From Alternaria dauci (taxonomy: Eukaryota > Ascomycota > Dothideomycetes > Pleosporales > Pleosporaceae), in contig NC_091272.1 of assembly GCF_042100115.1 (NCBI RefSeq), forward strand, positions 4,712,001-4,776,000: a stretch of 64,000 nt of DNA. The letters are read 5' to 3'. The notes below the pieces were generated by a model. That model was not told where the DNA came from. It saw only the letters and a list, made by a program, of their open reading frames with translations, and did not search any database. The translations under genes were made by a program, and so were the position numbers. The first letter of the stretch is position 1. The number at the start of each line of letters is the position of its first letter. Positions 14,996 through 62,675 of this stretch are shown here, in pieces.

Positions 14996-15385
14996 TATAA
15001 TCTTAGCGTAAAGCTCTACGTTTTAGAGTTATAGAAGCTTATTATTAACCTATAGTAAGTGTAGGCCTTATAATAGCTATTTAGCTTTAACTTTAGCCTT
15101 ATTTACTACTATAGTATTAAAAATCTTATATAGCTAAGGCTAGGTATTACTATTACTTTACTCTCTAATTCCTAAGTTATAATCTTATTATTATAGGTAG
15201 TTATTAAAGTATTAAAGTACTTAGTCTACCTCTATTAACTATATACTTATAGCTTAAAAACTCTTTAAAATAAGATTATAAGTTATTATAGAGCTCTATA
15301 CTAGCTAAAAATTACTAAAGAAGTTATATTTAGTAATCCTTAAGAGGCCTTAGGTTTACTAGAGGTACTAGGTAAACTACTTAGT

Positions 15386-15861
15386 TGTTACAAGGTAACA
15401 AGGAATTGCTTCCCTTTCATGCAGGTCGTATGAAGGAAGACCATCGGGCGGACACGATGGACGAAAGTGGATCTAGGGCGGGGCCCAGATCACGTGAAAG
15501 GAATGGCATCCCGCCAAGACCTGGCCTCTGGGAGGCCAGTGAGGATTGGGAGGTCACGGCCCTCCTAGGCCTCCCTCTTGGAAGGGAGGGTAAGGAGGAC
15601 AGGACCTATGGCAATGGGTATAAGAATGTGTTGGATCTCATTATTACACTCGTTGTGGTTAACTCAAATAGTTCATCTCTTACACAGATTGTCAACTAGT
15701 TATTCTATCGTTTATAGAATTGGTATTGTTTATCCTTTGGTTACAACGATAACTCTTTTCCACCTGATCATTCCATACGATACCTCACGGACTACCGCTT
15801 TAGTCTACCTCGCCTTAGTACGGACCGAGCCTAGAGAAGTATAGCCTAACCCCGTGTAACA
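15386..15861 (+). repeat. 5' LTR (476 bp)
   Basis: TGTTAC...GTAACA. Contains a TATA-like TATAAGAA at about 15620. GTGGTTAA at 15655-15662, some 35 bp downstream, would lie near the transcript start. It carries GGCATCCCGC (15505-15514), one base from the reverse complement of the intergenic motif described around 45.7-48.9 kb; this may be chance. Confidence 0.95.
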
Positions 15862-15882
15862 CTTTAACCACCTTGGATATCA
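15862..15882 (+). other. Primer-binding region, possibly self-priming
   Basis: The bases right after the 5' LTR (CTTTAACCACCTTGG) should include the minus-strand primer-binding site. I could not assign a tRNA. TTAACCAC at 15864-15871 is perfectly complementary to GTGGTTAA in the LTR just downstream of the TATA box, which is where a Tf1-style self-primer (5' end of the element's own RNA) would be. The match is only 8 bp and the 3' LTR has GTGGTCAA, so this is a hypothesis. Confidence 0.35.
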
Positions 15883-15924
15883 GTGGACGTTTAACCAACA
15901 GGACAGCCCGATTAAGATTCAACA

Positions 15925-17865
15925 ATGGCTCATCAGGGAAACGCGCAGAACAACAGGGCTCAGGGTCAGGGACCCTCGACGCCAGCACGCCCTACCCCAG
16001 AAAATGATGAGATGCTGGAAGCATCCGATGACGAGGGAGAGAACCCTAACGTCACCGAGCTCAGGAATCTTAGGCAACACACAACCACGCAGGCTCAGCA
16101 GATTGCTGAGATGCAGGCAATGATCAATCAGCTTGCAGGGCAACTGATGATGACCCCTAACGAACGACCCGTTGCTACAAAGAAACCCAAGATAGCGTCA
16201 CCAGAGAAATACGGTGGAGAACGAGAAAAGCTACGAGTATTTCTCACCAACATCGACCTGTACTGCGAGTACAACGAGGTACCCAACGACCAGGAAAAGA
16301 TCCTCATGGCCAGTACATACATGAAGGATAAGGCTTCCAATTGGATGCAACCCTATGTGGACGATTATCTGCTGGATGCAGAACACATGGGCACTAAAGA
16401 AGGAACCCGTACCTTATTCGCAAGTTGGACAGAGTTTAAGCAAGAGATGGGACGCATCTTCGGAGAAGTAGACGCTCAGAACCAGGCAGAGAAGAAGATC
16501 ACTCGCCTGAGGCAGACCTCGTCAGTATCGGCATACACGGCGGAATTTAAGCAACTACAAGCACGGATCGATTGGGATGATGCGGCACTTCGAACGGTAT
16601 TCGAAGCAGGCCTCAAAGAGAATGTCAAGGACGGCCTTGTACACCACGATAAGCCCGGGACGCTACACGCTCTGATCGAGCTAGCCACGCGTATCGACAA
16701 CAGGTTGTGGGAACGAAACGATCAGAAGAAATACTTCCGACCCAACCTGCCCAACATGAAGAAACAGCGTGGTAGATTCGACAGGGATGGCGACGCCATC
16801 ATGACCGGCAAGGTACAAGAGAAGGCCAAAGACAAGAAAACCCGAGGAGGTAAAAGACACGACGGTCTCTCCAAGGAAGAACGCCAGCGGCGTTACGACA
16901 ACAAAGCATGTCTCCGATGCGGGAAGACAGGACACTTCGCTAGGGATTGCGAAGAAGAACAAGTCAAACAGGCAGCTGTCAAGATCCGGATGATCAGACA
17001 AGGCACGCCTTACCCGGCCGGGATAGAGCCGGATGACAACCTAAGCGACTTAGACCTATACGAAGAGGCACGCTTGGAGGATAAGGAAGGCTACGAAATC
17101 GTCCCAAGAGTTAAACCGGACAACGAAGTTCTCACCATGGGCCAGCCAAAGAAGACTGACTGGAAGGTCAAAGGCACCATCGTGATGGAACGATTAGCCA
17201 ACAACCAGTGTTGGGTATGTGGTAACAAGACACACTACGCCGACGAATGCACGGTTCGCGAACGAATCATGATTACCGGCCCGAATGCCGAAGAAATTGG
17301 GTATCAGGCGATACACCAACAACCCTACTTCGATGATCCAATGGTTGAGGTCGAGGACCAAGAAGCCCACGAAGTAGAAGATACCAAGGATCACAAGGAT
17401 TTGTGTTGGTATGACTGTAAGATAAATTGCGAGTTCCATAAGCAAGATAAGGAGGATTGCAGGACAGACCAGGACCGGTGCTGCCACCTGAACCTCTGGG
17501 CAGACGAATGTCTAGCAGACATCTGCCATCTACACGAACCAGAGAAAGTGGAGATCCACTACAGACTTCTATGGACGCAATGCAGGAACGGGTGTGACTT
17601 CCATCGCAAGCAGCTCAAGGAAGCACACAAGGTGGATGACTATTACCATCGCACCCTATCATCAAACATCTGCGAGGTAGCAGATTGTGAGATTCACGAG
17701 GCCAAGAAGGCTCAACCAAGGAAGAGGATCACCAGGGAGGAGATACCTCACCAGAACATTCATTGGAGCTTCTGTTACGACGACAGGTGCTTGACGCACT
17801 ACAGCTCAAAGAATGACACAGGCTACTTTCCTAAGTACAGGAAAGGTAAGCAGTCAAAAAACTAG
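15925..17865 (+). CDS. gag: Retrotransposon Gag polyprotein
   Basis: Structural protein of the virus-like particle, 646 aa, starting at ATG 15925, 64 bp past the 5' LTR. Residues about 80-260 carry a retrotransposon Gag capsid region (ASPEKYGGEREKLRVFLTNI; FASWTEFKQEMGRIFGE; YTAEFKQLQARIDWDD). Two CCHC zinc knuckles follow: CLRCGKTGHFARDC at about residue 329 and CWVCGNKTHYADEC at about 429. Unusually, residues 495-625 hold five further Cys/His units of the form W-x2/3-C-x3/4-C-x2-H, for example WYDCKINCEFH and WTQCRNGCDFH. The frame ends in TAG at 17863, directly after a slippery heptamer, so Pol is probably made by -1 frameshifting. The long Cys/His tail makes this Gag larger than typical chromoviral Gags. 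Confidence 0.93.
   Translation: MAHQGNAQNNRAQGQGPSTPARPTPENDEMLEASDDEGENPNVTELRNLRQHTTTQAQQIAEMQAMINQLAGQLMMTPNERPVATKKPKIASPEKYGGEREKLRVFLTNIDLYCEYNEVPNDQEKILMASTYMKDKASNWMQPYVDDYLLDAEHMGTKEGTRTLFASWTEFKQEMGRIFGEVDAQNQAEKKITRLRQTSSVSAYTAEFKQLQARIDWDDAALRTVFEAGLKENVKDGLVHHDKPGTLHALIELATRIDNRLWERNDQKKYFRPNLPNMKKQRGRFDRDGDAIMTGKVQEKAKDKKTRGGKRHDGLSKEERQRRYDNKACLRCGKTGHFARDCEEEQVKQAAVKIRMIRQGTPYPAGIEPDDNLSDLDLYEEARLEDKEGYEIVPRVKPDNEVLTMGQPKKTDWKVKGTIVMERLANNQCWVCGNKTHYADECTVRERIMITGPNAEEIGYQAIHQQPYFDDPMVEVEDQEAHEVEDTKDHKDLCWYDCKINCEFHKQDKEDCRTDQDRCCHLNLWADECLADICHLHEPEKVEIHYRLLWTQCRNGCDFHRKQLKEAHKVDDYYHRTLSSNICEVADCEIHEAKKAQPRKRITREEIPHQNIHWSFCYDDRCLTHYSSKNDTGYFPKYRKGKQSKN
17856..17865 (+). promoter_or_regulatory. 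-1 ribosomal frameshift site at gag stop
   Basis: The gag codons read TCA AAA AAC TAG. This places the canonical slippery heptamer A_AAA_AAC (17856-17862) in the correct phase immediately before the stop. The pol frame is exactly -1 to gag and is open across this point: after a slip it reads AAA CTA GGA TGC and stays open into pol. A stimulatory stem or pseudoknot is likely in the following 60 bases but was not folded. Confidence 0.75.
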
Positions 17866-20800
17866 GATGCCGCCAGGGACAGGGTCACGCTGGTGAAGGC
17901 AGTCCTAAAACGACCCTTAGGAAGGTGCAGGATACCGATGGTCGGGTGAAGCAGCTGCTCACGACCGTATCTGTACAGGGACGAAACATCGAGGCGCTCG
18001 TAGATAGCGGGGCCGCACGAACGATGATCTCACCCAGAGTGGTGGAGAAACACGAACTACCCTACCGGGTTAAGAAGAACCCAGTATCGGTACTGTTAGC
18101 CGACGAGAAACCCATGGAATATGGAAACGGCATGATACGGATGGAAACCGAATCAACAAAGCTACGGATAGCTGGCATAGAGTGCCAAATGAATATCGAC
18201 ATAATGGAACTAGGAGGACTAGACATGTTGATTGGTTATGACTGGCTAGATGCCCATAACCCCGCCATCGACTGGCGAATGAAGACGATACTCAGAAGAG
18301 AACCTGTGCACAAGGTTGCTAGAGTACGCCAAAGAGTGAGCCCGAAGGACCAGAGCTCAACCCAGGACGGGAGGTTCGGCAAGATCTCGCCTCATAAGAT
18401 CATGAGAATCTATGAGAAGGACCCTCAAAGAGTAGGAGTCATATGGATAAGACGAGTCGCGACCACGAAGGAAGGACCCTTACCACTAGAGATACCAAGA
18501 GAGTATCAGACCGACGAGTTTAGAGAACTCTTCGAGGAAAACGAAGCCACGGACTTGGCAGACCATCAGGATTGGGATCACGAGATCATCCTAGATGAAG
18601 GGGCAAAGTTAAGCCCAGGACCTATGTATCCCATATCGCCCGAGCACGATGCTGAGCTAAGGGAGTACATCCAGAAGAATCTGAAGAAGGGATTTATCCG
18701 ACCGGGATCAGGCCCAATGGCCTCACCCATCTTGTTCGTAAAGAAGCCTAACGGGAAGTGGCGACTATGTGTCGACTTCCGAAGGTTGAACAGCGTTACT
18801 CGGAAGAACCGATATCCCTTACCACTAATAACCGAGCTCATGGATCGACTCCAGGGAGCCAAGTGGTTTACGAAGTTCGACGTTCGGGAAGGATTTCACC
18901 GAATCAGGATCAAGGAAGGACACGAATGGATGACAGCGTTCAAAACGAAATATGGACTGTTCGAGTACACAGTAATGCCTTTTGGGTTAACGAATGCCCC
19001 GGCAACGTTTCAGTCAGTCATCAACAACGCTCTTCACGAGTACCTTGGAATCTTCGTCACAGCGTACATCGACGATGTGCTGGTATACTCTAGCGGGACG
19101 CTAGAAGAACATGTGGAACATGTCAAGAAAGTGCTCAGGAAGCTTAAGGAATACAAGCTGTACCTGCAGCCGGGGAAGTGCGAATTTCACACGAAGGAAA
19201 CGGAATACCTAGGCTTCATAATATCCACAGAGGGGGTGAAGATGAACCCAAAGAAGACAGCGGCTGTACAGGAATGGCCAACGCCCAAAACAGTCAAGGA
19301 CGTGCAATCCTTCCTAGGATTTGCCAACTACTACCGGAAGTTCATCAAGGATTACTCAAAGATCACAACACCTCTCTCCGAGATCACGAAGAAGGAAGTT
19401 GGTTTCAAATGGAACGAGGAACATCAGGAGGCTTTTGATCGAATCAAGCAGATATTCCTCGAGGCACCAGTACTAGAGATGTACGACCCAAAGCGAGAGA
19501 CGCGAGTCGAGACCGACGCGTCAGATTATGCACTCGGAGCTGTATTGTCGCAGCAGTGCCCAGACAAAAAGTGGAGACCAGTGTTCTACCACTCAAGAAA
19601 GTTCTCTGGAGCAGAACTAAACTACGACGTTCACGATAAGGAGCTACTAGGAGTAGTCGATGCCTTTGAACAGTGGGAAGTCTATTTGCTAGGACTACCA
19701 CACCAGATCGAGGTTTTTACCGATCACCAGAACTTGGCAGGTTTCATGACAACGAAGAAACTCAACCGACGACAAGTCCGATGGGCTGAGATGCTAGCTC
19801 AGTTCGACTTCAAGATAACTCACCGCGCTGGAACGCTCAACGGAGCTGCGGATGCTTTAAGCAGGAGATCCGACTTACGCGAGGAAAATCATAAGGAACC
19901 ACATGACGCCATGTTCAAGAAGATGCCTGATGGCACACTACGTTACAACCAGCCGGAACTAGCTAAGATAGCTAAGGTGGCCGAGCGGGTAGAAACACTT
20001 CAGCAGCAGTGGCAGCAGAGAGCGGCCAGCTGGCAGTTCGAGCCTGACGAGAACGGCTCCGACGAACTGTTACAAGACGAGCGAGAGTACCGAGATATGA
20101 TTCGAAGCGATCGAACATATGTACCCCCACACATGAGATCGAGTCTCATCAAGGAACTGCATGAGTCCCCAGAGTATGGACATGCATCGCTAGAAGAAAT
20201 GGTCAGGCGACTATCAAAGGTGTTTGCGATACCACGCTTGCGAGCGAAGGTGCAGGACGTCCTAGGCAACTGTTTGGCTTGTCATCAGAACAAACCCAAG
20301 AGACATAAGCCCTATGGCCTGTTACAACCCTTACCGCCACCAACGAGACCATGGAGCAGCGTAACAATGGACTTCATAGTGAAGCTCCCGAAGTCGTTAG
20401 AACCAGGATCCGGAAGATTATGCGACACAGTCCTAGTCATCGTGTGTCGTCACACGAAAGGAGCAAAGTTTGTGCCCACGGAAGAAACCATTACGGCAGA
20501 AGAATGCGCGTATGAGGTCAGCAAGGCACTTATGTCAGAACATGGGATACCTGAAGAATTCATCACCGATCGTGATAAACTGTTCACTTCCAAGTATTGG
20601 AACACATTCCTGGCAAAGCTGGGTGTGAAGAAGAAACTATCGACTAGCTTCCACCCCGAAACAGATGGCCAGACGGAACGAACGAACCAGACACTGGAAC
20701 AGTATCTGAGGATGTACGCCAACAAGCTGCAAGACAATTGGGTTGAACTCTTGCCGACAGCACAATTGGCCTACAATAGTACTAGGTCTGCGACGACTAA

Positions 20801-22025
20801 GTACTCACCACACTACGCGAATTACGGATATGAGCCGGTTGCTCATCGAGATCCAAAAGATATAGAGAGTATCGCAGTAGGTGCAGACGACAAAGCCCGC
20901 TTGATGCGAGGACTGCACGAAGAATTGAGCAAGAACATAGCTCATAGGAACCTCACGACAGCCAAGGCGGCTAATAAGCAAAGGATTGAGGGACCAACCT
21001 TTAAGAAGGGGGACAAAGTTTTCCTGTCACGTCAGAACTTGAAAACTAAGCGACCAAGCAAGAAACTGGACAACCTCCGAATAGGACCATTCGAGGTTCT
21101 AGAGGAAATGGGTAACGTAAACTACAAACTCCAACTCCCACCAGGCATGCGCATCCACCCTGTCTTTCACAAGAAACTCCTGGAAAGAGCACCTCCAGAT
21201 GCCGAGCTAGCTACCGACATAGAGCTCGAAGACGATGAGTACGAGGTCGAAGAAATCAGGGACCTGCGGAAAATCGGTCGTCAGTGGAAATACTTGGTCA
21301 AGTGGCTAGGATGGCCAGAGAGCCAGAACACTTGGGAACCAAAAGAAAATTTGACGAACTGCAAGTCACAGGTACGTGAGTACCATCGGAAACACCCAGA
21401 GAAGGGAGGACCGGGTCCTCAAGGGAAGAAAAGAATTCAGAAAAAGGATCGAAAGAAGCGTCATCCTGCAACCAGCCCAAGTCAGTCGACAGTCCGGGTA
21501 GCGATGGTTCAGTTGGTTGAAAGTCCGTACCAGGGGCAGAGTTCCCCTCGGCTTGCTCTTTCGCGCGATCCTGAAGACTCAAAATGGCGTGATCTCGATC
21601 AGCGAATGCTCGCTCTCGCGCCTCAGTCTCTGCCACTTCCAGCCGAAGTTGAGCGACCTCGGCCTCAGCTCGAAGAAGCGCCAAGCGCTTCTCGCGCTTT
21701 TCAGCCTCAACCTTCTCCCACTCTTCCTCAGTCACAAATAAGCTACACTCAGCTTTCACCGAAATACAGCCCGCACACTGCCCAGAGGCAGTGTCCACGA
21801 AACAACGAAGATTCTTCTCCTCACACCGCTTGCAACGAAAGGTCATCTCGTTCCCTTGTTGGCGGATACGGTCAGCACGAGCCTGGCGCTGTTGAGTCGA
21901 GTTCTGGGTACGGACGCGTCGAGAAGTCTGAACCTTGGGCATGGTCAGGGAAAGTGAGGAAAAGAGGAAAGAGAGGATACGACACCACCGGAGTAGCTAT
22001 ACCTCCACCACCGCCGCCGGACTAG
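17862..22025 (+). CDS. pol: Retrotransposon Pol polyprotein with chromodomain
   Basis: Copies the element RNA and integrates the DNA. Open from the frameshift point; numbering from the GTG at 17925 gives 1366 residues. Protease LVDSGAART with catalytic Asp near 27. Reverse transcriptase active site YIDD at 381-384. RNase H with TDAS Asp near 531. Integrase zinc-binding His near 746 and CLACHQNK, then the D816, D882, E918 triad with the exact 35-residue D-E spacing. The chromodomain at about 1104-1157 (EVEEIRDLR, WKYLVKWLGW, NTWEPKENL) is expected to steer integration to marked chromatin, fitting its site in an AT-rich block. After the chromodomain comes a Pro/Ser/Arg-rich tail of about 200 residues ending in polyproline. 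That tail overlaps an antisense ORF and may be constrained by it rather than functional. Confidence 0.95.
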   Translation, partial: LGCRQGQGHAGEGSPKTTLRKVQDTDGRVKQLLTTVSVQGRNIEALVDSGAARTMISPRVVEKHELPYRVKKNPVSVLLADEKPMEYGNGMIRMETESTKLRIAGIECQMNIDIMELGGLDMLIGYDWLDAHNPAIDWRMKTILRREPVHKVARVRQRVSPKDQSSTQDGRFGKISPHKIMRIYEKDPQRVGVIWIRRVATTKEGPLPLEIPREYQTDEFRELFEENEATDLADHQDWDHEIILDEGAKLSPGPMYPISPEHDAELREYIQKNLKKGFIRPGSGPMASPILFVKKPNGKWRLCVDFRRLNSVTRKNRYPLPLITELMDRLQGAKWFTKFDVREGFHRIRIKEGHEWMTAFKTKYGLFEYTVMPFGLTNAPATFQSVINNALHEYLGIFVTAYIDDVLVYSSGTLEEHVEHVKKVLRKLKEYKLYLQPGKCEFHTKETEYLGFIISTEGVKMNPKKTAAVQEWPTPKTVKDVQSFLGFANYYRKFIKDYSKITTPLSEITKKEVGFKWNEEHQEAFDRIKQIFLEAPVLEMYDPKRETRVETDASDYALGAVLSQQCPDKKWRPVFYHSRKFSGAELNYDVHDKELLGVVDAFEQWEVYLLGLPHQIEVFTDHQNLAGFMTTKKLNRRQVRWAEMLAQFDFKITHRAGTLNGAADALSRRSDLREENHKEPHDAMFKKMPDGTLRYNQPELAKIAKVAERVETLQQQWQQRAASWQFEPDENGSDELLQDEREYRDMIRSDRTYVPPHMRSSLIKELHESPEYGHASLEEMVRRLSKVFAIPRLRAKVQDVLGNCLACHQNKPKRHKPYGLLQPLPPPTRPWSSVTMDFIVKLPKSLEPGSGRLCDTVLVIVCRHTKGAKFVPTEETITAEECAYEVSKALMSEHGIPEEFITDRDKLFTSKYWNTFLAKLGVKKKLSTSFHPETDGQTERTNQTLEQYLRMYANKLQDNWVELLPTAQLAYNSTRSATTKYSPHYANYGYEPVAHRDPKDIESIAVGADDKARLMRGLHEELSKNIAHRNLTTAKAANKQRIEGPTFKKGDKVFLSRQNLKTKRPSKKLDNLRIGPFEVLEEMGNVNYKLQLPPGMRIHPVFHKKLLERAPPDAELATDIELEDDEYEVEEIRDLRKIGRQWKYLVKWLGWPESQNTWEPKENLTNCKSQVREYHRKHPEKGGPGPQGKKRIQKKDRKKRHPATSPSQSTVRVAMVQLVESPYQGQSSPRLALSRDPEDSKWRDLDQRMLALAPQSLPLPAEVERPRPQLEEAPSASRAFQPQPSPTLPQSQISYTQLSPKYSPHTAQRQCPRNNEDSSPHTACNERSSRSLVGGYGQHEPGAVESSSGYGRVEKSEPWAWSGKVRKRGKRGYDTTGVAIPPPPPPD
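21298..21942 (-). CDS. Antisense ORF in retrotransposon, Zn2Cys6-like
   Basis: ATG-started 214-aa frame on the strand opposite pol, covering the pol tail and part of the chromodomain. After a basic N-terminus (MPKVQTSRRVR, then QQRQARADRIRQQ) comes a perfect C-x2-C-x6-C-x8-C-x2-C-x6-C array at residues 37, 40, 47, 56, 59 and 66, the spacing of a fungal Zn2Cys6 binuclear cluster. A strongly charged heptad-like helix follows at about 72-120 (EEWEKVEAEKREKRLALLRA...), typical of a coiled coil, then an acidic Ser/Leu/Asp-rich C-terminus (residues 140-190) that could act as an activation region. The order of cluster, coiled coil and acidic tail is that of a small transcription factor. No start or promoter evidence beyond the ATG. 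The pol tail on the other strand has no recognisable domain, which suggests selection acts on this frame. It could regulate the element or the host. Confidence 0.6.
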   Translation of the reverse strand: MPKVQTSRRVRTQNSTQQRQARADRIRQQGNEMTFRCKRCEEKNLRCFVDTASGQCAGCISVKAECSLFVTEEEWEKVEAEKREKRLALLRAEAEVAQLRLEVAETEARERAFADRDHAILSLQDRAKEQAEGNSAPGTDFQPTEPSLPGLSTDLGWLQDDASFDPFSEFFSSLEDPVLPSLGVSDGTHVPVTCSSSNFLLVPKCSGSLAILAT

Positions 22026-22067
22026 GCGCGGGAAAACGATAATCCAGGGTATCGAGACGATACGCCT

Positions 22068-22081
22068 AAGAGGGGGGGTAA
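22068..22081 (+). other. Polypurine tract
   Basis: AAGAGGGGGGGTAA directly abuts the 3' LTR; it is the expected plus-strand priming site for reverse transcription. Confidence 0.8.
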
Positions 22082-22556
22082 TGTTACAAGGTAACAAGGA
22101 ATTGCCTTCCTTTCATGCAGGTCGCATGAAGGAAGACCATCGGGCGGACACGTTGGACGAAAGTGGATCTAGGGCGGGGCCCAGATCACGTGAAAGGAAT
22201 GGCATCCCGCCAAGACCTGGCCTCCGGGAGGCCAGTGAGGATTGGGAGGTCACGGCCCTCCTAGGCCTCCCTCTTGGAAGGGAGGGTAAGGAGGACAGGA
22301 CCTAAGGCAAGGGGTATAAGAATGTGTTGGATCTCATTATTACACTCGTTGTGGTCAACTCAAATAGTTCATCTCTTACACAGATTGTCAACTAGTTATT
22401 CTATTGTTATAGAATTGGTATTGTTTATCCTTTGGTTACAACGATAACTCTTTTCCACCTGATCATTCCATACGATACCTCACGGACTACCGCTTTAGTC
22501 TACCTCGCCTTAGTACGGACCGAGCCTAGAGAAGTATAGCCTAACCCCGTGTAACA
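22082..22556 (+). repeat. 3' LTR (475 bp)
   Basis: Begins TGTTAC and ends GTAACA like the 5' copy. Differences seen include GCTTCCC/GCCTTCC, GTCGTATG/GTCGCATG, ACGATGG/ACGTTGG, CTCTGG/CTCCGG, TATGGCAATG/TAAGGCAAGG, GGTTAAC/GGTCAAC and TCGTTTATAG/TTGTTATAG. They are a mix of transitions, transversions and a 1-base indel, not a RIP pattern. Followed by the TTAGT target duplication. Confidence 0.95.
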
Positions 22557-45530: not shown

Positions 45531-45923
45531 GTAACTCGGAGACTGTAATGCAAATCAATACGCTGGATGGAGCACGAGACTATGCTAAGATCCATGAACA
45601 AAGTTTGGCACCCAGCGACGTCTGCTTGATATATCTTGAACACAAAGCATGATATCGTACGAAACGCTAGCTCCCTCCGCTGCCACATCTGAAAAGTCTA
45701 GCGTTGGTGGGATGCCGGTACGCATGAGGGGCTGTTAGTCATCCTCTCCATCCGGAACCCGTGTCCTGCACTCGCTGAGCTTGATAATACATAAGATTCA
45801 GATTATCAAAGCAGCGCTAAATCATAAACTCTTTCCTCTTACTTATTTAAAGACGTTCGTTGCCTACGCGATTTCCACGTCGCATATCCCTACAATTACA
45901 TCTTCGTATACTCACTATCAGAC
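45531..45923. promoter_or_regulatory. NmrA-like gene promoter with GTGGGATGCCG
   Basis: The 393-bp gap has one copy of the motif at 45706-45717 (GGTGGGATGCCG), about 210 bp upstream of the NmrA-like gene. Confidence 0.5.
45706..45717 (+). promoter_or_regulatory. GTGGGATGCCG motif, copy 1
   Basis: Reads GGTGGGATGCCG. The identical 11-mer GTGGGATGCCG recurs at five other intergenic sites up to 48877, always near the genes of this neighbourhood. A Zn2Cys6 half-site CGG occurs in the reverse complement (CGGCATCCCAC). Confidence 0.6.
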
Positions 45924-47120
45924 ATGAAGGTCGCTATCCTCGGTGCTAGCGGAACGACTGGCCAATCCATCGTCGATGGTCTACTGTCCTCCACAGAAAC
46001 CAAGTTCGTACGTTATACTACTCCAGACAAATCTTGCTCGCTGGCCTATGATGCCATAGGTCTAACTCAATATGTCTTAGGATATCACAGCTCTAGTACG
46101 ACCTTCCTCACTTGAGAAGCCTGATGTAATCGACCTCAAGAACAAGGGCATTACCATCCAAGCGGCCGACTTGAACGCCTCCGAACATGAACTAGGCCAG
46201 CAGTTGCAGGGCCAAGATGTGGTCATCGCCGCTATCAGCATTCCTGCAACGATGAAGCAAATCTCTCTTGCCAATGCCGCCAAGGTAGCTGGAGTCAAGC
46301 GTTTCGTGCCTTGCTTCTTTGCTCCTGTAGCAACACCAAAGGGCTTAGTGGATCTCAGGGATAAGGTAGGCAATATGCATCCCTATACCGCAAGAACCCG
46401 AAGTACTAACGAACCGCTACAGAAGGAAGACGTGTTCAACCACGTCAAAAAGTTGCATCTGCCTTACACCATCATCGATGTAGGCTGGTGGTTCCAGTTC
46501 ACTCTGCCAAAGTTGCCTTCTGGACGTGGCGATCACGCTCACAGTGGCTTGGAAATTCAGATTCCTGGAGATGGCAATGTGCTTTCGGCATTTACTGACA
46601 ATCGCGACATTGGGAAATTCGTCGCTCGCATCGTCGCTGATCCTCGAACTCTGAATCAGCAGATCTTCATGTATTCTGAGATGACAACTGTGACGAAGAT
46701 CTATGATCTCCTCGAGAAAATGAGCAACGAGAAGATCCCCCGCCGTTATGTAAGCACTATGCCCTTTAACATGCTCTCTTCTCATGAACACCTTACTAAT
46801 GCATCTGCGTCAAGATCTCTGGAGATGAACTTCTTGAGGCTATAAACAAGTTTGGGGACTCTCGCAACTTGAGCGACGACGAATTTCTCCAGAAGGCTGT
46901 TTACCAGTATTGGTACTCATGGGGTATTCGCGGCGAGAATACTGATGATCACGCCAAGTACTTGGGCTATGTTGATGGGAACAGTCTTTATCCAGGCATA
47001 AAGACAAGATCCTTCGAAGACTACATCAAGGAGATCCTGTCCGGATCAAGCATTTGGTCTGCCAATGATGGACGTTTTGCGGGTACACACCTAGGTAGCT
47101 TGGTGATGATGGAGAGATAA
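45924..47120 (+). CDS. NmrA-like / isoflavone reductase-like NAD(P) protein
   Basis: Atypical short-chain dehydrogenase of the NmrA/isoflavone-reductase-like group. Exons 45924-46007, 46081-46365, 46423-46749 and 46815-47120 join in phase (introns 73, 57 and 65 nt), 333 aa. The glycine motif is at the very start: MKVAILGASGTTGQSIV. DLNASEHELGQQLQGQDVVIAAIS, AAKVAGVKRFVPCFF and PYTIIDVGWWFQFTLP follow the family layout, with no SDR catalytic YxxxK in the usual place. Members reduce phenylpropanoid-like double bonds or act as NAD(P)-sensing regulators. First gene of the run of metabolism genes; the motif GTGGGATGCCG lies upstream and again in its 3' flank. Confidence 0.85.
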
Positions 47121-47456
47121 CCCAAAAGACATAATCGCATTGTCACGATTGAGCTTGTGTGACCTACTACTAGCTTTTCGATCAACTCGGCGTTAGATAT
47201 GGATGCTTGACGGCCAAACTATGTACAATTCTTGAAACTGCGCGTCACTTAATGCACAAGTGTGCACATCTAGCCTTCTGTAGTCGCCATACTCCCTTAC
47301 ACTCGTAACTTGTTGGTTGCAGATGCAGCTATCGGTAGATACTGATGTCATTATGAAAGCTGGATTGACTTAGACTCGATTACAAATTTTAACCTGTTGA
47401 AGAGATTTGCCGAATGTGCCGAACGTTGTGTTCAGTCAGTGCTTGGGAAAGAGACT

Positions 47457-47468
47457 GGTGGGATGCCG
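47457..47468 (+). promoter_or_regulatory. GTGGGATGCCG motif, copy 2
   Basis: GGTGGGATGCCG, followed by CTGCTGAAC, similar to the flank of copy 4 (AAGCTGAAC). Extended match with copy 3 as an inverted repeat. Confidence 0.6.
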
Positions 47469-47594
47469 CTGCTGAACAATCCAAGTAGCTGTTCGTCCGG
47501 AGCCCATCTGTCCATTGACATGGGCTCGCCGGTATCCGGCACTTCTCCGAGAACGCATGTAACCCGGATCAAAGAAGCCTAGGCGCCGATCAGA

Positions 47595-47606
47595 CGGCAT
47601 CCCACC
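47595..47606 (-). promoter_or_regulatory. GTGGGATGCCG motif, copy 3 (inverted)
   Basis: Plus strand reads CGGCATCCCACC; the only copy on the minus strand, about 100 bp before the GST start. Confidence 0.6.
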
Positions 47607-47707
47607 AGTCTATGAGTATATGTACGCTCTTAGTTGTCGAGTTCATTCTTCATTGTCTTGTCACACAACAGTTCAATTTCATCACCATCCACGCCAAACA
47701 TCTCAAT

Positions 47708-48459
47708 ATGGGCCTAACGGTGCATCACCTCCAACACTCACAGTCTGAACGGATTGTTTGGCTTTGCGAGGAACTCGGCATCGACTATGAGCTGAAAATC
47801 TATCAGCGGGAGCGTATTGGCTTAGGAGCGCCTGCGAACCTGAAAGCAATGTAACGTGTTATTTCCCTCGCCTTCTGAAGGCACAGTCATCCTACAGACC
47901 CTAACTGATCTTCAGTCATCCCACCGGCACAGCGCCAGTGATCCAAGATGGCGACATCACCATGTCGGAGTCTGCTGCCATCATGGACTACCTTTTGGGC
48001 AAGCATGGCAACGGTGCCCTCTCGGTTTCGAGCAGCGCGCCGAACTTCTCAGACTACGTCTTCTGGTACCACTGGGGTATCGGAACGTTCCAGAGCACGG
48101 CAATGACTCTCGTCTATTTTGTGAAGGCTGGCGTTGAAGAGACTCACCCTATTGTGCAAGTACTCATCCAGAAAAGAACGAGTGGACTTGACATGGTGAA
48201 TCAGCGCCTGATGCAGAGCACATGGCTTGCAGGGGAGGAATTTACCGCTGCCGACGTGTATACCGTCTTTGTCGTTACGACTATGCGCCTGTTCACCCCT
48301 TTTTCTCTTTCGGGCTATAGCGGTATCAAGAGATGGCTTGAAAATGTCTCCCACAGGCCGGCGTACAGGAGGTTGATTGAGAAGGCTGAGCAGGGCGAGA
48401 GCAGAGGCGAGTTTCCTGTGTTGGGCGATGAAGCGCCACGACCAATGGCAAGCTACTGA
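47708..48459 (+). CDS. Glutathione S-transferase
   Basis: Exons 47708-47850 and 47916-48459 (intron 65 nt), 228 aa, the usual size. The N-terminal thioredoxin-fold domain opens MGLTVHHLQHSQSERIVWLCEELGI, continues with LKAIHPTGTAPVIQDGD (cis-Pro) and MSESAAIMDYL, the glutathione-binding SNAIL/TRAP-like motif ES. The C-terminal helical domain has WLAGEEFTAADV, a typical N-capping box. The position, next to an ACC-synthase-like PLP enzyme, a P450 and a Zn2Cys6 regulator, recalls biosynthetic GSTs of sulfur-containing fungal metabolites, which add glutathione to a reactive intermediate. A detoxification role is the alternative. Regulated, I infer, through the flanking GTGGGATGCCG motifs. Confidence 0.9.
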
Positions 48460-48764
48460 ATGGTTATGAGATGTCCGTGGCACAAACATCATGCTAGAGT
48501 GCAGCACGTTTAGATTATTGCCTGTCGTTGTGCTCTATTTCTTCCTCATCAATACGACCAATAGTGAATTTGTCGAAGTGTTCAAGTCTCGCACTCCGAG
48601 GTACAAAGTCTCTGTACTCGTAAAGCTTTCGTCATAGCACCGTACTGTCCCTACCCTGCTCCAATCACTGACGAAGCACAAAATTAACCATAAGAGCAAC
48701 ACTTGGCGAAAGTTGTGTGCATGCTCGGAAAAGCTAATCGCATTCAGAGTCGTGGAACAAGCCC

Positions 48765-48776
48765 AGTGGGATGCCG
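48765..48776 (+). promoter_or_regulatory. GTGGGATGCCG motif, copy 4
   Basis: AGTGGGATGCCG followed by AAGCTGAAC. First of three regularly spaced copies. Confidence 0.6.
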
Positions 48777-48816
48777 AAGCTGAACCCAGCAGATTTCGAG
48801 GCGACGAAACAGGTTG

Positions 48817-48828
48817 AGTGGGATGCCG
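48817..48828 (+). promoter_or_regulatory. GTGGGATGCCG motif, copy 5
   Basis: AGTGGGATGCCG followed by AAGCTAGAG; 52 bp after copy 4. Confidence 0.6.
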
Positions 48829-48865
48829 AAGCTAGAGAGCAAAAGTCAAGCTAAGGATCAGGTGG

Positions 48866-48877
48866 GGTGGGATGCCG
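48866..48877 (+). promoter_or_regulatory. GTGGGATGCCG motif, copy 6
   Basis: GGTGGGATGCCG followed by ACGCTACCT; 49 bp after copy 5. Confidence 0.6.
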
Positions 48878-49241
48878 ACGCTACCTAAGTAGTTCGGGCT
48901 GCTTGGCATCGTGAGCGGCGGTAAGATGCGCGACCACCGGAGCTCACTGCGCCATCGCAAGCCTGGGTACAAGTCAAGTTGATAGTATAACAACGGGTAA
49001 GAACGGTGCACGTAGATCCAGCGGTGCCAAGATGTGTCGAAGGGCGTGACTTACATGGCTGAATTTACGGAAGGAACTTATGTAACCAATGACACTGGTT
49101 TGCCGACCTCGGATATAACCCAATGATAAGTCTTGACTACAACCGTTTTATTATTACTTCAACTGGCATGCAATCCTTCGAACGTCATTCTCGATATACA
49201 TCTTTGTTGGACCAAACATTCCAAAACGATCTGCAAGGGCC

Positions 49242-50614
49242 ATGTCGACCTCCAAACTCTCCAAACGCGGTAGCCATGCAAGTACAACAGGGGCCAAGGA
49301 CTTCGTATGTGTCATGTCTCTTGAATCATGATTTTTGGTCTGATACCTGTGCAGGAAATATGGGACATAATAACAAATATGTGGGACCCAAAGACGAAGC
49401 CTGATGGCTACGTGTCTCTTGGTCTTGCGGAGAACAGCCTGATGCACAACGAACTATTGAACTTTCTCAACTCAAAACGACTAGTTGAAGACACGGCTCA
49501 GGGACTCACCTACGGAGATGGGCCACAAGGGTCTCAGCGGGCCAAGGCTGCAATCGCATCGTTCTTGAGCAGCCATTTGCGCTCAACAAAGGAGCTAAAG
49601 CCTGAGAACATCTTCATCACGAATGGAGTCTCTTCAGCGATTGAACATTGCGCCTGGACCCTCGCTAACCCCGGGGAGGCTATTCTGCTTGGGCGCCCAT
49701 ACTATCGCGCATTCCTCCCAGACATGTGTATGAGGACAGGGGTCCAAGTTGTTCCGGTAGCATTCAGAGACGTCGATCCTTGCAACCCAGGCTGCGTGGA
49801 AAAGTACGAAGAAGCGTTGCTGAGATCGAACGACCACGGTGTGCCCGTTCGCGCACTCATGTTGTGCCATCCACATAATCCACTCGGGAGATGCTATCCA
49901 AGAGAGACACTGATTGGACTCATGAGATTGTGTCAGAAGTACCAGATTCATCTCATAAGCGACGAGATCTACGCACTCTCCACATGGAAGAATACTGCCG
50001 ATGACCTTGCTCACGAACCCGTCGGTTTTGAATCCATTTTGTCAATCAACAGCAAGGATATCATCGATCTTTCGCTGATCCATGTCCTGTGGGGCGTGTC
50101 CAAAGACTTTGGCGCAAATGGAATCAGACTGGGTGCCATCATTTCACAGTCGAATCCAGCTTTCCTTGCTGCATTGCGAACATGCAGCATATACTCATCG
50201 CCATCATCTCTCACAGAAAGCGCAGTTGTGCACCTCTTGTCAGATACGTCATTCGTCGAGAGCTACATCGCGACAAATCAGGCGCGTCTCTCAGCTGCAT
50301 ATGCGCGGACTGTCCTTGCTCTTCAAGATCATGGCATCGAACACATGCCGGGTGCGAACGCTGCTTTCTTTCTGTGGATCAACTTGGGCAAGTTCATGCG
50401 CGAGAAGACATACTTGGGAGAGAAAGAGATGCAGGTTTACTCTGGACCAGAAAGCACGCAAATAATCCAAGATCGGTTACTGGCGAGAAGGGTATATTTG
50501 GTTCCTGGGGATGCCGTAGGTGCAGAAGAGCCAGGCTGGTTCCGAATGGTTTTCACTCAGCGGGAAGAACTGGTAGCTGAATGCATTCGACGCATCGTTG
50601 ACGCGTTGGGGTAG
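49242..50614 (+). CDS. ACC-synthase-like PLP-dependent enzyme
   Basis: Fold-type I PLP enzyme of the aminotransferase/ACC synthase group. Exons 49242-49304 and 49355-50614 (50-nt intron), 440 aa. N-terminal block DPKTKPDGYVSLGLAENSLM is the ACC-synthase-like opening (substrate loop). TYGDGPQGSQRAKAAIASFL, then NPLGRCYPRE, the PLP-contacting HLISDEIYAL, and the Schiff-base Lys in VSKDFGANGIRLG are all present, as is the terminal Arg region (PGWFRMVF). In fungi these proteins seldom make ethylene precursor; several work in metabolite clusters, e.g. as C-S bond or amino-acid modifying enzymes. The true reaction is undetermined. Adjacent GST and P450 suggest a shared pathway. Confidence 0.88.
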
Positions 50615-51145
50615 AGACAATAGACACATATCAATTGGAACAAGGAAATTATCAGAGCTGTTTCTTTGGTTTTGCTCGATGGAAGAGCTTCGCCCTGCTA
50701 GACCATTCGGGCTGGCCACAACTCACACGAAGTTCCTGCTCCTAGGTAACCTTTCGGAATCGCCTCCGACTGTCTCTACCTAGGTACAGTTAGGGCATAC
50801 GCGGCCGTTCTCGTCCCCAAGGTTCCTCCGGGTAGGCGGCATCCGATTGGTCGCTTCAAGGAGCAACGTCTTGATCTCACCGGGTAAACGTAACCCGATT
50901 CGCTGACATCGGTCCTTCTACAACACCTATGAAGCTTGCGTCTGCATTCTGATTTGCACCACCGCAACATTCAGATGACAAGACATCCATGCCTACTCGA
51001 GCAAGTTCTTATGTAAGCCAAGGACACTCCCTACTTCTATAAAGGCTGAAACCACTATCCCATATGATTAGAGCATCCCGAGGTCATTTCTACATAAGTT
51101 CGAACAGTCGATCCTCTCATCTCCACATTAGCTCGACCGTCCAGC
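50615..51145. promoter_or_regulatory. P450 promoter region with TACCTAGGTA palindrome
   Basis: Perfect 10-bp palindrome TACCTAGGTA at 50777-50786, about 360 bp before the P450 ATG, with a half-related CTCCTAGGTAAC at 50739-50750. The same palindrome lies upstream of the second P450 at 58328. No gene in the gap. Confidence 0.4.
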
Positions 51146-52883
51146 ATGTCACTCTCCGTCTTGCTTGTAGCTGTGCTTATGGGGTTGATAGTATACTTAA
51201 TCACTTACATCATATATCAGCGATTTCTGCATCCGCTAGCCAAGTTTCCAGGCCCTTTTCTCGCATCTCTTACAGATCTTTGGCAAGTCTCAGAGTTCCT
51301 CTCTTTAAAGCAGCCGTACAACCTGACTGCTCTCCACGAAAAATACGGCCAGTTTGTTCGGTATGGCCCGGACAAGATTAGCACCACAGCCGAAGATGCC
51401 ATACCCATCATCTACCAGAAGGGCGGCAGGATGTTTCCGAAGACGGAATTCTATGATGCATATGGATCATCCATCCCAAACGTTTTTGGTATGCGTGATG
51501 AATCGGTAGGGTCTTCGACAATGCTGTTACTGAATTTGTCTTTAACACGACCTCCCAGAAACATTCCGTTCGACGGCGACACATGTCTTACAGCTTTTCC
51601 GCATCGTCTATAAAGAAGATGGAGGACCTGCTCGACAAGAACGTCAAGATCTTAAAGCAAAAGCTATGCAGATATGCCGAAAGCGGCGAAGTTGTTGACC
51701 TCAAGAAGCTTTTTAAATTTTATACCATTGACATACTTGGCGAGTTAGCTTTTGGTCGGTCCTTTGCGGTTCAAGAAACTGGTGACGAGTCCCGCGTACC
51801 ACCAGTTGTCGAGCATAGCTTGCTCGCTGCAGTAACTGGAGCATGGCCTGCCATGACATTCAGGCTGAAGCGATGGCTTCCGAAGGTACCTTCTCGAGGC
51901 TTGAGACGATTGTTCGAGGGCCGCGCAGCCTGTGCAAATTTAGCAGCGACATGCGTACGCCAACGACTCGCAGCCTTACGGAATGCTAAAGGCTTCGACG
52001 ATGATGCAACCACGCCGGAGCGAAAGGATCTCTTGACCAGCTTAATCGTGGCCAAAGATCCTGATACTGGAGACAGATTGTCTCAGACCGATCTTGAGGC
52101 TGAAGCATTTGGCTTAATGTGAGTTGTGTTCGTCGATAGCGTGTTGGTGATTTTGAACACTGACCATGGCGCAGCATTGCGGGGACTCACACCACAAGTG
52201 CTACCATTTCACTACTGTTTTATCATCTGCTGGAATCGCCTGGGATCATGGCGAAATGCGTGGCGGAGATTGATTCTCAGCTCCCGGCGTTAGGTCAAGA
52301 TGAACCAGCATATGCGGTTGCGGAGGTGGAAACTTCACTCCCCTTTTTGCGGAAGTGCGTCAAAGAGAACTTTCGCAATACCCCAGTCTTCACGATGCCG
52401 TTGGCTCGCAGAGTTCTGACTCCTGGTGGTGTCATAATAGGGGGCGAGCACATTCCCTTCGGCGTAAGTTTCCTTTTGGCTGCGACATCAGGTAGCGACG
52501 TACTGACTAGCATCTAGACCTCGATCGCAGTCTGCAACCATGCGTTCCATCATAATCCAGCTGTATGGGGCGATGACCATAGCACCTTTGATCCGTATCG
52601 ATGGGATCAGCCTGAGACTGCAGCGCGCGGACGCTACCTGATGCACTTTGGTCTTGGCGGTAGACAATGCATCGGGAAGACACTCGCCCAGACAAACATC
52701 TACAAGCTGACGAGTACTCTACTACGGGAGTTCGCGTTCGAATATACACGGACAGATGGCGAAGAAGCGGGCGACGAAAGGGAAAAGAAAGATGCGAGTG
52801 TAGGAAGACTACCGGACATGGTGTCTGTAGGAATCAGTGATCTAGAACATCCTCTCATGGTCAAAGTTCGCAGAAGAGGTTAG
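51146..52883 (+). CDS. Cytochrome P450 (membrane-anchored, first of two)
   Basis: Exons 51146-51505, 51559-52118, 52175-52463 and 52518-52883 join in phase (introns 53, 56 and 54 nt), 524 aa. N-terminal anchor SVLLVAVLMGLIVYLITYIIY, then the hinge HPLAKFPGPFLASLTDLW. KHSVRRRHMSYSFS (C-helix region) and I-helix IIAGTHTTSATIS arise at splice joints, which supports them. ExxR in KENFRNTP, PERF-region DPYRWDQPE, and haem loop HFGLGGRQCIGKTLAQ with Cys ligand. The style (pisatin demethylase/benzoate hydroxylase-like CYP clan 53/65 type) is common in fungal secondary metabolism. Substrate unknown. Convergent with the Zn2Cys6 regulator. Confidence 0.9.
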
Positions 52884-53128
52884 TTATCATGACGGCCGTT
52901 TTGAACAGGGAACCCGTTACAGTATCAGTATTGATGCTGGGAATATATACATTTCTTCGGTGACTTACTAGGGTAAAGAAGCACTTCAAAGTGGCTAGAT
53001 AGACAATGTGGAGGCTACCTAGAATGTAAAGCAATTACATGGGAAACCCCTTAGCTTTCTGTATAATTCTAGTAAACTCAATCCTGGTACAGTCATATGT
53101 AGTTACCCCTTCACTCTCAAAAAGGCTG

Positions 53129-55515
53129 CTAGCCACTAAGACTAGAGCTAAGAAAGCCCATATCCGAATCCAAATAGCCTAGCTGGCTAGATTGAAGAAC
53201 AAAATCGCAGGCGGGCTCGGCGACAAACTGTGCAAGGATGTCATCAAATGTACCCGTAAGCATTGGATCATTATACAAGATGTCATTAGGTGCAGATGCC
53301 GCATGTAGTACTTTATGGCAAGGTAGGTTAGCAAGTAATCTCGGTCCCAGGAATTGATTAGATGAAACATACCAAACGTCTCGAGCACGTGCAAGAACTT
53401 TTGCAAGCACTGTCGACCTTTCCGACTCATTAGACTGCATCTCTCGATAGTTTCTAGTGTTTGCAAGCTTGACACGACGGCTTTGCGAATTTCTAATGAG
53501 TCAGGCAATCTGTCTAGCACCGTGGAGTCAGACTGGCAGCTCGCTAGAAGTATTGCGAACAAATGTAGCGCGGCAGTGAACACTATCCAGTGTTAGTAGC
53601 GCATCTCAAAGTCTAGAGATTCAAAAGAGAACTCACCATAGTAGTTACAGGTCCACCAAATCGCATTATTGTCGAAGAACCCTGGACATGTCTTGGCTAT
53701 GTAGGATATCATATCAACAAGTTCTGTTGCTGATGCAAAATCGTTTTGTAGGGCTAATAAGATCTCGCCAGTGCACCAATGGAATTGGTCATCTCCGAGC
53801 TCACGCCCAGCGATCGCCTCAAGTACTGGCCGGTTAATAAGCAAAACGGTGACATGATAATGAATGGTGAGCAAGATGCGGAAGCGATTACTACTGAACA
53901 ATGGTGGCGACCACAATGCTACTTCTGCGTAAGTAGCGAGCGCACTCGCCGGTGGAAGAGTTCTTTTCCACTGTTCGAGCGTGCATATATGTTGCAGCCT
54001 TTGAGGGAGGATCTCTTGAATGGTAATGGATTGTGAAGAACCGAAATGATGATCTTCAATCGCTTCCAAGATTGAGGCTCTCACTTTGGTCAACTCCCTA
54101 GACCGAAGTTAGCTTCGTTTGTGGTAGTCAAAGGCCACTCACGCAAGCTGATAAAAGTATATTGCACTGTTGGTGTGGCCCAAGAGGCTCATTTGGCGGT
54201 GTGGTATACGTGCGTGGGGTGGAAAGATCAGACGAGGTCGTCCCAGTGCCATACTCAAGGCGCTATCCTGTATGATTACACCCAGCCAAACCCTTTGTAG
54301 AATCTCACAATGACCAGGATCTTTCCCATCATACAAAGTAAGCGCATGCAGGCCCATTTGAAAAGATGCCTTGACTGCGATTGCGTGGTAAGTCCAACTT
54401 GCAATGGAGCGTTGGGTATTCTGTTGGAAGGTACAGAGGAGTAAAACCGCTTGTACTATGCGCAGTAAGTCATATCAGAGCACGAAGGCGATTATGTTTG
54501 ACCGGATGACACGACATACCAAATTCCAAACCGGAGCCACGAAGAGGCAATCCATCAAGAAGTACAAGTGTACGGCGGTAGAATATCTCGGCGTCTGGAG
54601 ACGATTTAGTGAGTGCCGCGTGAGCACCGATGATATTCAACAATGCTTTCTTAGTGTTGGAACTGTTCTCGAATGGGACCAGGAAAGACCGATCTTCACC
54701 GAGGCCGAGTACGGTTCTGTCGACGTATGGAAAAACTGAACCCTGTGCTTCGAAGAAGTGGTTCACTAAACTTTGCAAATCTTGATCGCTTGACGAGACA
54801 AGATGACCCTTATGCTCCTGGTTGGTGAGCATATGTTGTAGGGATGGCTTCAAGTGTTGCTTTGAAGCGTCTAATTGTTGTTGATTGAGGAACCTGGACG
54901 ACGAGACCGCAATATTCTGCCTAGGTGAGCGGCACAATATGGGTAATCTTTGCGTCAAAGCTGAAGTTAGTATTCTGAATAGCGCATGATTCGAAGTGGG
55001 GCCTTTTATGGTCTATTAATATCCGATACTACTTCCAGAGCATGTTACAACTTACCAAAGTAGCCGATGTCTTGTTGCGGTGACTCGTCAAAAGCATTTG
55101 TGGCCAAAAGGTCTACAGCAGATTCGTCATGGCTATTCAATTCCTCATTCCCAGACTCAAGAGAAGGAGCGGAAGGAGCGGATGTTAGTAGCAACTGAGA
55201 CTCCAATTCTTTGACTCTTTTCGCAAGTTGTGCATATGTCCTAACTCTGGTATGAGCATCATGTGTACTCTTGGAAGGATCGTGTCTCATACGGATTCTT
55301 TCGCTGTGGTGACGGTAGTCGCTGATATTGGCATTGTAAAGACAATTCTAGGCAGGTGGAGCATGAGGGTCGCAATCCGTCACACTTGCACTTCGTCAGA
55401 TTACAGCGTACGTGGTAGAATGGAAAGGCGCAATTACGCGAGTTTTCCTGCTGCGACACGGGGCGCAGGCAAGGGCGACTCGTTTACGTATCGACAGTCG
55501 ATTTGGTGGAGGCAT
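53129..55515 (-). CDS. Zn2Cys6 transcription factor with fungal_trans region
   Basis: Pathway-type fungal regulator. Eight exons join in phase: 55515-55438, 55390-55314, 55246-55056, 54960-54520, 54449-54143, 54097-53637, 53582-53373 and 53310-53129, 648 aa. The first splice creates the zinc cluster: CAPC and RSRKTR join CKCDGLRPSCSTCLELSLQC, giving C-x2-C-x6-C-x8-C-x2-C-x6-C. Next come a coiled-coil stretch (YAQLAKRVKELESQLLL) and a middle homology region (VNHFFEAQGSVFPYVDR; IASWTYHAIAVKASFQMGLH; LQRVWLGVIIQDSALSMALGRP). The second intron uses a less typical donor, GTCACC; without it the frame breaks, so that join is the weakest. Neighbouring P450, GST and aminotransferase genes are plausible targets, perhaps through the CGG-containing GTGGGATGCCG motif. 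That link is an inference. Confidence 0.82.
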
Positions 55516-61418: not shown

Positions 61419-62675
61419 ATGGCCGGAAACCCTGAAATTGCCCTGTTCCAGTGTTCGTGGCCTGAATGTACTTCGAGTTACCAGCGGCGAGAACATCTCA
61501 ATCGTCACGTGAAGAAGCATCTTGAACCAAAAGAGTATGCGTGCCCATACTGTACGACTGTGGTTGGTCGAAGGTACGCGCTCTTGATTTCCATGTCGTT
61601 TGTGTAGCGTTGACGTCTAGAGATTGCAGCGATACTTTGGTTCGCCATATTTCACGACACCACAAGGGCAAGGAGTCGTTCCGATCCCGAGCACTTCGGG
61701 CCTGCTGTCACTGCAAGGCCCGAAAAATACAATGTAGCACAGGCACACCATGCGAATCGTGCTTTCAACGAGGGCTTTTGTGTTCTTATGGCTCTTCCGC
61801 TATATCTGATGACCCTGAGGATAAGCTACAGACACTCTCGACACCCGCACAAATCGCGTTCTGCAGCCCGGATCAGGAAACAACCAACCTTGACAAATAC
61901 CTAGCCATATACTTTACCCAGTTTCATCCAACATGGTCATTCCTTCACAAGTCAAGTTTTCGTCCGGAAAGAGAATCGCAAGTACTGGTTCATTCGGTAG
62001 TGATGGCAGGCCTGTGGTTTAGTAACGAGAAAGGTGCAAAGGAGGCAGCAATTGAAATGCACAAAACGCTGATGGCATCGATCCGGCGTCAGCGCGTATG
62101 TATAATGTCCCTGGGATCTACCGCTCAACGCTCACGAAGTCCTGTAGTGCACGTGGGATGATTCTCACTCCGACATAACCAGCGAGGCATCCACTTGGCC
62201 CATGGCCACTTATCAGGCGATTCTCCTGAATATAATCCTCCCCTTGACAGCCGATAAACAAGCGTCGAGCACGGTATTGGAGTTTCCTGCGCCTGATCAA
62301 GACATCTTGGTCGCTATCGTGAACAGCAGCTTAAAGAGAGGCATGTTCAGCTATACAAGTATGCTTGAACAGTATCAGCAAACAGCTTTGACTCCTCACA
62401 CTGCTCCCCACATCTGGATCGGTATCGAGGAAGCGAAACGGTTCGCACTGACTTTGTATCATGTGTGGACGATTTATTGTGAAACGCAGATGCCGAGTAA
62501 TGACGAGTGTCTGGATCGGCTTTCATCGCACAATCTACAGTTTTCTGCTCCCGTAAGTGATGACTTGTGGAACGCAGATACTATACCAGAGCTTGTCACT
62601 CTGGTCGAAGAGGAAAAGGCCAATGGCAACCAAATATGCGACAATGAGATGAACTGGATTTGTAATTGGTCATAA
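61419..62675 (+). CDS. C2H2 plus Zn2Cys6 dual-finger transcription factor
   Basis: Exons 61419-61573, 61621-62095 and 62187-62675 join in phase (introns 47 and 91 nt), 372 aa. Two C2H2 fingers lead: CSWPECTSSYQRREHLNRHVKKH and CPYC...LVRHISRHH, the latter rebuilt by the first splice. A Zn2Cys6 cluster follows at residues about 79-106 (CCHCKARKIQC, then CESC...C; C-x2-C-x6-C-x5-C-x2-C-x6-C). Then a fungal_trans-like region begins (LAIYFTQFHPTWSFLHKSSF; ASTWPMATYQAILLNI). The protein stops after CNWS, about 200 residues shorter than usual for this class, so it may be a short form or 3' truncated. The acceptor of intron 2 (CGAG) was chosen to keep the phase. Confidence 0.78.

Follow-up and report, generated by a model that had tools for sequence, protein, structure and literature searches.

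The carrot-blight fungus Alternaria dauci, a member of the Pleosporales, carries, in the 64-kb stretch of its genome analysed here (the window, in which all coordinates are 1-based), a short word repeated between neighbouring metabolism genes. A scan of the window found six exact copies of this 11-mer, GTGGGATGCCG, and no seventh, even when one mismatch was allowed. An earlier inspection of the letters (the sequence-only reading) had reported all six, with starts one base too low because they were counted from zero, and its statement that the 64 kb hold no further copy remains correct under this relaxed search. The copies, together with a tentative variant, are the following.

45707..45717, forward strand: putative operator copy 1, GTGGGATGCCG, 217 bp upstream of the NmrA-like ATG
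47458..47468, forward strand: putative operator copy 2, 250 bp upstream of the glutathione S-transferase (GST) ATG
47595..47605, reverse strand: putative operator copy 3, inverted, 113 bp upstream of the GST ATG
48766..48776, forward strand: putative operator copy 4, 476 bp upstream of the aminotransferase ATG
48818..48828, forward strand: putative operator copy 5, 424 bp upstream of the aminotransferase ATG
48867..48877, forward strand: putative operator copy 6, 375 bp upstream of the aminotransferase ATG
50837..50847, reverse strand: tentative variant ATCGGATGCCG, two mismatches, 309 bp upstream of the P450 ATG

The genes of the cluster were modelled by hand with GT-AG introns, and all models give open proteins.

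45924..47120, forward strand: NmrA-like (isoflavone-reductase-like) gene, four exons, 333 residues, ACET3X_001476
47708..48459, forward strand: GST gene, two exons, 228 residues
49242..50614, forward strand: pyridoxal-phosphate (PLP) enzyme of aminotransferase class I/II, similar to 1-aminocyclopropane-1-carboxylate (ACC) synthase, two exons, 440 residues
51146..52883, forward strand: cytochrome P450 gene, four exons, 524 residues
53129..55515, reverse strand: Zn2Cys6 factor with Zn_clus and Fungal_trans domains, open eight-exon model, 669 residues

The NmrA-like protein is 100% identical to A. dauci ACET3X_001476 (333 residues), and the PLP enzyme has ACC synthases as its nearest solved structures (E 3e-49). 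A Zn2Cys6 regulator gene is thus present within the cluster itself (53129-55515); it corresponds to ACET3X_001479 at 100% identity, with 667 residues in the public record against 669 in our model.

All six copies lie in the gaps 45531-45923, 47121-47707 and 48460-49241, which total 1,762 bp and whose bounds follow from the hand-built models, the stop of the upstream gene (45530) having been read by eye. The same word therefore recurs exactly in three promoters of the cluster, and with two mismatches in a fourth, that of the P450 gene. Placement of every copy in the three gaps beside the NmrA-like, GST and aminotransferase genes, and the spacings of 52 bp (copies 4 to 5) and 49 bp (copies 5 to 6), had been noted from the letters and were confirmed. 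In an alignment the inverted copies 2 and 3 have 17 bp in common (AGACTGGTGGGATGCCG), so that the inverted match already described is real and one base longer than the 16 bp given for it; copies 4 and 5 likewise share 17 bp.

Clumping of the word and divergence of its flanks

In 100 dinucleotide shuffles, matches with at most one mismatch averaged 0.82 and never exceeded 4. GTGGGATGCCG is the sole 11-mer that reaches six copies within any 3.2 kb of the window. Eleven other 11-mers reach four or five copies on this scale, ten of them mostly A+T-rich words from the stretch at 11.3-15.2 kb and one the motif itself shifted by one base, while three A+T-rich 11-mers have six or seven copies when the whole window is counted. 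With 60 second-order Markov randomisations of 23.5-64 kb, the top clump of any 11-mer was three copies, reached in 6 of the 60. Likewise, twenty 10-kb genome pieces were scanned, 19 of them chosen for holding a motif copy, and 11-mers with at least four copies per 3.2 kb occurred solely in one tandem array of a 15-bp unit (L032:7522-7869, 22 copies of its 11-mers counted). This array sits inside an open frame of 1520 residues without a Pfam match.

The many repeated A+T-rich 11-mers at 11300-15200 of the window are perhaps decayed repeats. Beside them, at 15400-22300, lies a long terminal repeat (LTR) element of the Ty3/gypsy type, with open gag/pol frames at 15916-17865 and 17850-22025; an identical 27-bp stretch occurs at 15504 and 22200 in this region.

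Genome-wide (34.9 Mb), GTGGGATGCCG has 37 exact copies compared with 12 for the pattern read backwards, and our own arithmetic, assuming equal bases, gives an expectation of about 17. Outside the cluster no two copies lie within 3.2 kb of each other. Among related patterns, GGTGSGATGCCG occurs 21 times (5 for the reversed pattern), with four occurrences in the cluster and two at a GFA-domain gene described below; GTGGGATGCCGNNGCT with at most one mismatch occurs 21 times (13 in the control); and TSSGATGCCGNNGCT, at 13 against 9, is too loose for listing a regulon.

Pairwise identity among the six copies is 1.0 in the core and falls to 0.36-0.37 in the adjoining 5 bp, 0.36 at -10 to -6, 0.27 at +6 to +10 and 0.22-0.29 beyond, out to 40 bp. 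NNGCT follows the core in four of the six copies, which faintly suggests that the motif extends in the 3' direction. The contrast between a fully identical core and the values beyond about 10 bp indicates that the neighbouring sequence diverged around a retained core.

This pattern bears on two explanations that need no regulatory role. Spread of the copies by local duplication or by a short mobile element would account for several of them lying inside 3.2 kb, and for the 17 bp common to copies 2 and 3 and to copies 4 and 5. However, with identity at chance level about 10 bp from the core on either side, copies in both orientations and no dispersed family across the genome, the six are not a block that was duplicated, nor do they represent a dispersed repeat; the latter was rejected on the genome-wide count and the flank comparison together, and we regard the explanation as a whole as very improbable. 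Even less credible is a chance clump or a bias of coding sequence. GAG TGG GAT GCC GA. is a natural coding word (Glu-Trp-Asp-Ala), some copies outside the window do read Trp-Asp-Ala in an open frame, and five of the 19 outside copies for which 10-kb surroundings were covered (19 of 31) lie in stop-free frames of more than 300 residues. Coding bias thus accounts for some of the other genomic copies, but not for the six, which all stand in non-coding gaps and outnumber the three copies of the largest clump in the 60 Markov randomisations.

Sites outside the three gaps

The gap before the P450 gene holds TCGGATGCCG, the variant at 309 bp from the ATG, and ATCGGATGCCG is the sole match with at most two mismatches in that gap. 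The variant completes a CGG-ATG-CCG dyad (CGG-N3-CCG). Furthermore, CGGCATCC is the sole 8-mer found in all four upstream gaps. Its chance of occurring in a 531-bp gap is about 0.012, based on two non-seeding copies in 200 kb and four in the window besides the six and the P450 variant; it rises to 0.056 when the 19 seeding copies are included.

On another contig, C2, an exact GTGGGATGCCG (4942538) and a one-mismatch GTGCGATGCCG lie 53 bp apart on one strand, that of the gene they precede; the partner site also reads GTGCGATGCCGTTGCTGA. The two lie 209 and 262 bp upstream of the ATG of a GFA-domain gene (PF04828, E 2.7e-20; L030:4942-5602, C2 approximately 4941941-4942601). A rough, after-the-fact calculation from 31 x 120 x 16 one-mismatch 16-mers, both strands included, puts at about 0.001 the chance that one of the 31 other copies would have such a partner no more than 60 bp away. 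Tandem pairs of the form SGATGCCG-N30-60-SGATGCCG number eight genome-wide against three in the control and, besides the two pairs in the cluster, the GFA pair alone holds the exact 11-mer. The GFA-domain gene is thus a possible second target of the word.

The full 16-mer of copies 4 and 5, GTGGGATGCCGAAGCT, recurs once, at C3:2951845 (L029:5846), near CHY-zinc-finger and HET-domain frames; no link to a pathway was seen among the neighbouring frames. Around other copies (L031, L032, L035, L036, L038, L039, L044 and L047), 9 of 20 frames have a Pfam match and 11 have none, the nine being of mixed kinds without a common pathway. One of the nine is another Zn2Cys6 factor, and the motif copy at L035:4493 lies about 1.5 kb from the end of its frame (5997-7772).

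Proposed operator and its candidate reader

When the six exact copies, the P450 variant and the two GFA sites are compared, neither T at position 2 nor GATGCCG changes and all differences lie in positions 1, 3 and 4, although this invariance is favoured by the three added sites having been found by their likeness to the first six. Read on the opposite strand, the word is CGGCATC followed by a looser CCCA. The CGG half-site previously recognised on the reverse complement is therefore part of the invariant half. Each exact copy has one perfect CGG half and GGG as its second half, CGG-N3-CCG being present in the P450 variant only.

These features suggest that the 11-mer is probably a shared operator, through which a Zn2Cys6 factor would control three genes jointly (NmrA-like, GST, ACC-synthase-like) and probably the P450 gene as well. 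A shared operator of the three metabolism genes, as the sequence-only reading had proposed, is well supported by the clumping, the upstream position, the identical core with unlike flanks and the rarity of the word elsewhere, and its occurrence in both orientations, which DNA operators allow, fits such a role. The description 'pathway-specific' that came with that proposal may be too narrow, since a tandem pair of like design precedes the GFA-domain gene on contig C2. Binding, a Zn2Cys6 reader and the direction of regulation are what we infer from this arrangement. A reader of the Zn2Cys6 class is plausible given the invariant half CGGCATC and the P450-gap variant that completes the dyad.

As a mechanism, the factor would grip CGGCATC through its CGG and hold the other half, CCCA, more loosely; a fixed CGGCATC beside a looser CCCA is the pattern to be expected of a zinc-cluster protein that makes one strong contact, with CGG, and binds the second half weakly. 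One copy would serve the NmrA-like gene, the inverted pair the GST gene and the three tandem copies the aminotransferase gene, where a spacing of about five helical turns could allow graded, dose-dependent or cooperative control.

The factor encoded at 53129-55515 is, by proximity, a candidate reader, which we consider possible though somewhat short of an even chance; if it is the reader, its predicted motif is CGGCATCCCAC. Models from A. panax and A. alternata join a relative of the P450 (87% over 517 residues and 90% over 478, respectively) with one of the factor in a single fused protein, so that the genes are neighbours in these two species as well. Judged by eye, A. burnsii P0134 appears to have this fusion too. 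In these models (P0122, P0132 and P0134) the two parts lie on one strand, whereas the P450 and factor genes of A. dauci are convergent (51146-55515); the difference is either a local inversion in A. dauci or the result of modelling errors in the other species.

Several observations weigh against the proposed operator and its local reader. A second perfect CGG half is missing in all six exact copies, and the chance figures for the P450 and GFA sites are rough, as these sites were picked out post hoc. The genome-wide count suggested in the sequence-only reading revealed no dispersed repeat, but the 31 copies outside the window exceed the 12 of the backward control, an excess that coding sequence explains in part only; similarly, GGTGSGATGCCG has 15 occurrences away from the cluster and the GFA-domain gene, compared with 5 in the reversed control. 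The 785 bp upstream of the factor gene hold no copy with two mismatches or fewer. In A. panax the best relative of the aminotransferase (P0003) and the P450-factor pair are listed on different contigs (2,432,464 and 2,961,026 bp), a comparison that assumes one assembly. Finally, in lists of the best 120 relatives of each protein, A. gaisen (83%) and A. postmessia appear for the NmrA-like protein but A. panax does not, whereas A. panax (87%) appears for the aminotransferase and A. gaisen does not; no other named species is listed with close relatives (>65%) of both. Among the relatives are AG0111_0g2202 of A. gaisen (NmrA-like), J4E82_001700 of A. postmessia and G6011_04959 of A. panax (aminotransferase).

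Some of these points would be expected if the operator is real and its reader is encoded elsewhere, for example by the Zn2Cys6 gene at 61526-62161 or by a gene of another class, and if the word belongs to a wider glutathione-linked or detoxification regulon that includes the GFA-domain gene. The copy-free region upstream of the local factor, the separate contigs in A. panax and the excess of single copies over the backward control all favour such a reader, as do the tandem pair before the GFA-domain gene, which suggests that the word may act in trans, and the fact that GST and GFA are both compatible with glutathione chemistry. However, the adjacent, open factor is the simplest candidate, and the mixed assortment of frames near the other copies offers no common pathway. 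We hold a reader encoded elsewhere, with such a wider regulon, to be a minority possibility. Equally tentative is the suggestion of a small thiol-linked regulon that would extend beyond the cluster and comprise the GST, NmrA-like, ACC-synthase-like and P450 genes with the GFA-domain gene. In such a regulon the word might be a directional, half-symmetric zinc-cluster operator (T-S-S-GATGCCG) with phased tandem copies, a description that we likewise put forward with reserve.

Some further observations concern the aminotransferase gene (49242-50614). A protein search with its product gave no A. dauci self-match, the top identity among the matches listed being 88%, and the locus tags run from 001476 (NmrA-like) to 001479 (factor) with three genes in between; the aminotransferase may be absent from the public annotation or modelled otherwise there. 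A paralogue is present at C5:39530-40791 (48% over residues 1-287 and 34% over 288-438). SGGATGCCG was absent from the surroundings of the paralogue that were examined (pieces L050 and L052), and a motif copy at C5:50625, about 10 kb away, lies near MFS and FAD-hydroxylase frames. A. alternata P0055 was considered as a close counterpart of the paralogue and rejected, with 51% over 265 residues only.

The word is most likely a shared operator, which would add a well-founded case to a known type of gene control rather than reveal a new type; the finding is an ordinary cis-regulatory one with a useful lead in trans. It turns four or five neighbouring genes of a plant-pathogenic Alternaria into one testable regulatory unit, with a candidate reader, a possible second target gene and an exact word to seek in related species. 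Cluster finders easily miss a cluster that lacks a polyketide or peptide synthase, and for such a cluster a shared operator is a useful handle.

Comparison with described operators

In the collection of papers searched, CGGCATCC was not found in the context of Cys6 factors of fungal clusters. The same context with GGATGCCG gave a match on Trichoderma XYR1 among the matches listed in excerpt, and a search with four 9-mers returned no such operator among the excerpts listed. In the main text of a paper on A. dauci clusters (PMC9114375), searched by term, aminotransferase, Zn2Cys6, NmrA, isoflavone reductase and promoter were not found.

The nearest solved relatives of the DNA-binding part of the factor are the zinc clusters of HAP1/CYP1 and Gal4 (E 1.7e-5 and 6.9e-4). 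HAP1 uses asymmetric sites, and the sites of HAP1/CYP1 and Gal4 differ from the word in spacing and sequence. The AflR operator, TCGSWNNSCGR, has the same half-site spacing as the word, and the P450 variant is one letter off it. None of the six copies, however, matches the AflR consensus, which was rejected; its seven matches in the window equal chance (6.99), though one, on both strands at 48589, does fall in the aminotransferase gap.

Gliotoxin clusters also contain GST, ACC-synthase-like, P450 and Zn2Cys6 genes, and the GliZ-type site of these clusters has been extended to SirZ. The GliZ operator of the gliotoxin cluster is a predicted TCGGN3CCGA (PMC4006717, PMC7022936), described as not experimentally proven (PMC4006717). 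The exact GliZ consensus was rejected for the word, as the window holds no perfect TCGGN3CCGA; the four matches to TSGGNNNCCGA are all TGGG, with none TCGG, and TCGGNNNCCGA is not enriched genome-wide (420 per strand against 548 in the control). By Pfam, no nonribosomal peptide synthetase was found among 20 sequences of the window (16 raw frames and four cluster proteins) or in the factor, a search that spliced genes and frames beyond these 20 could escape. With neither a perfect GliZ match nor such a synthetase found, the word was not classed as an epipolythiodioxopiperazine operator. The GliZ site is nevertheless the nearest one described: it likewise combines a CGG half-site with a 3-bp spacer and is repeated in the promoters of its cluster, and against it copies 4-6 read TGGGATGCCGA and the P450 variant TCGGATGCCGC, each agreeing at seven of the eight fixed positions.

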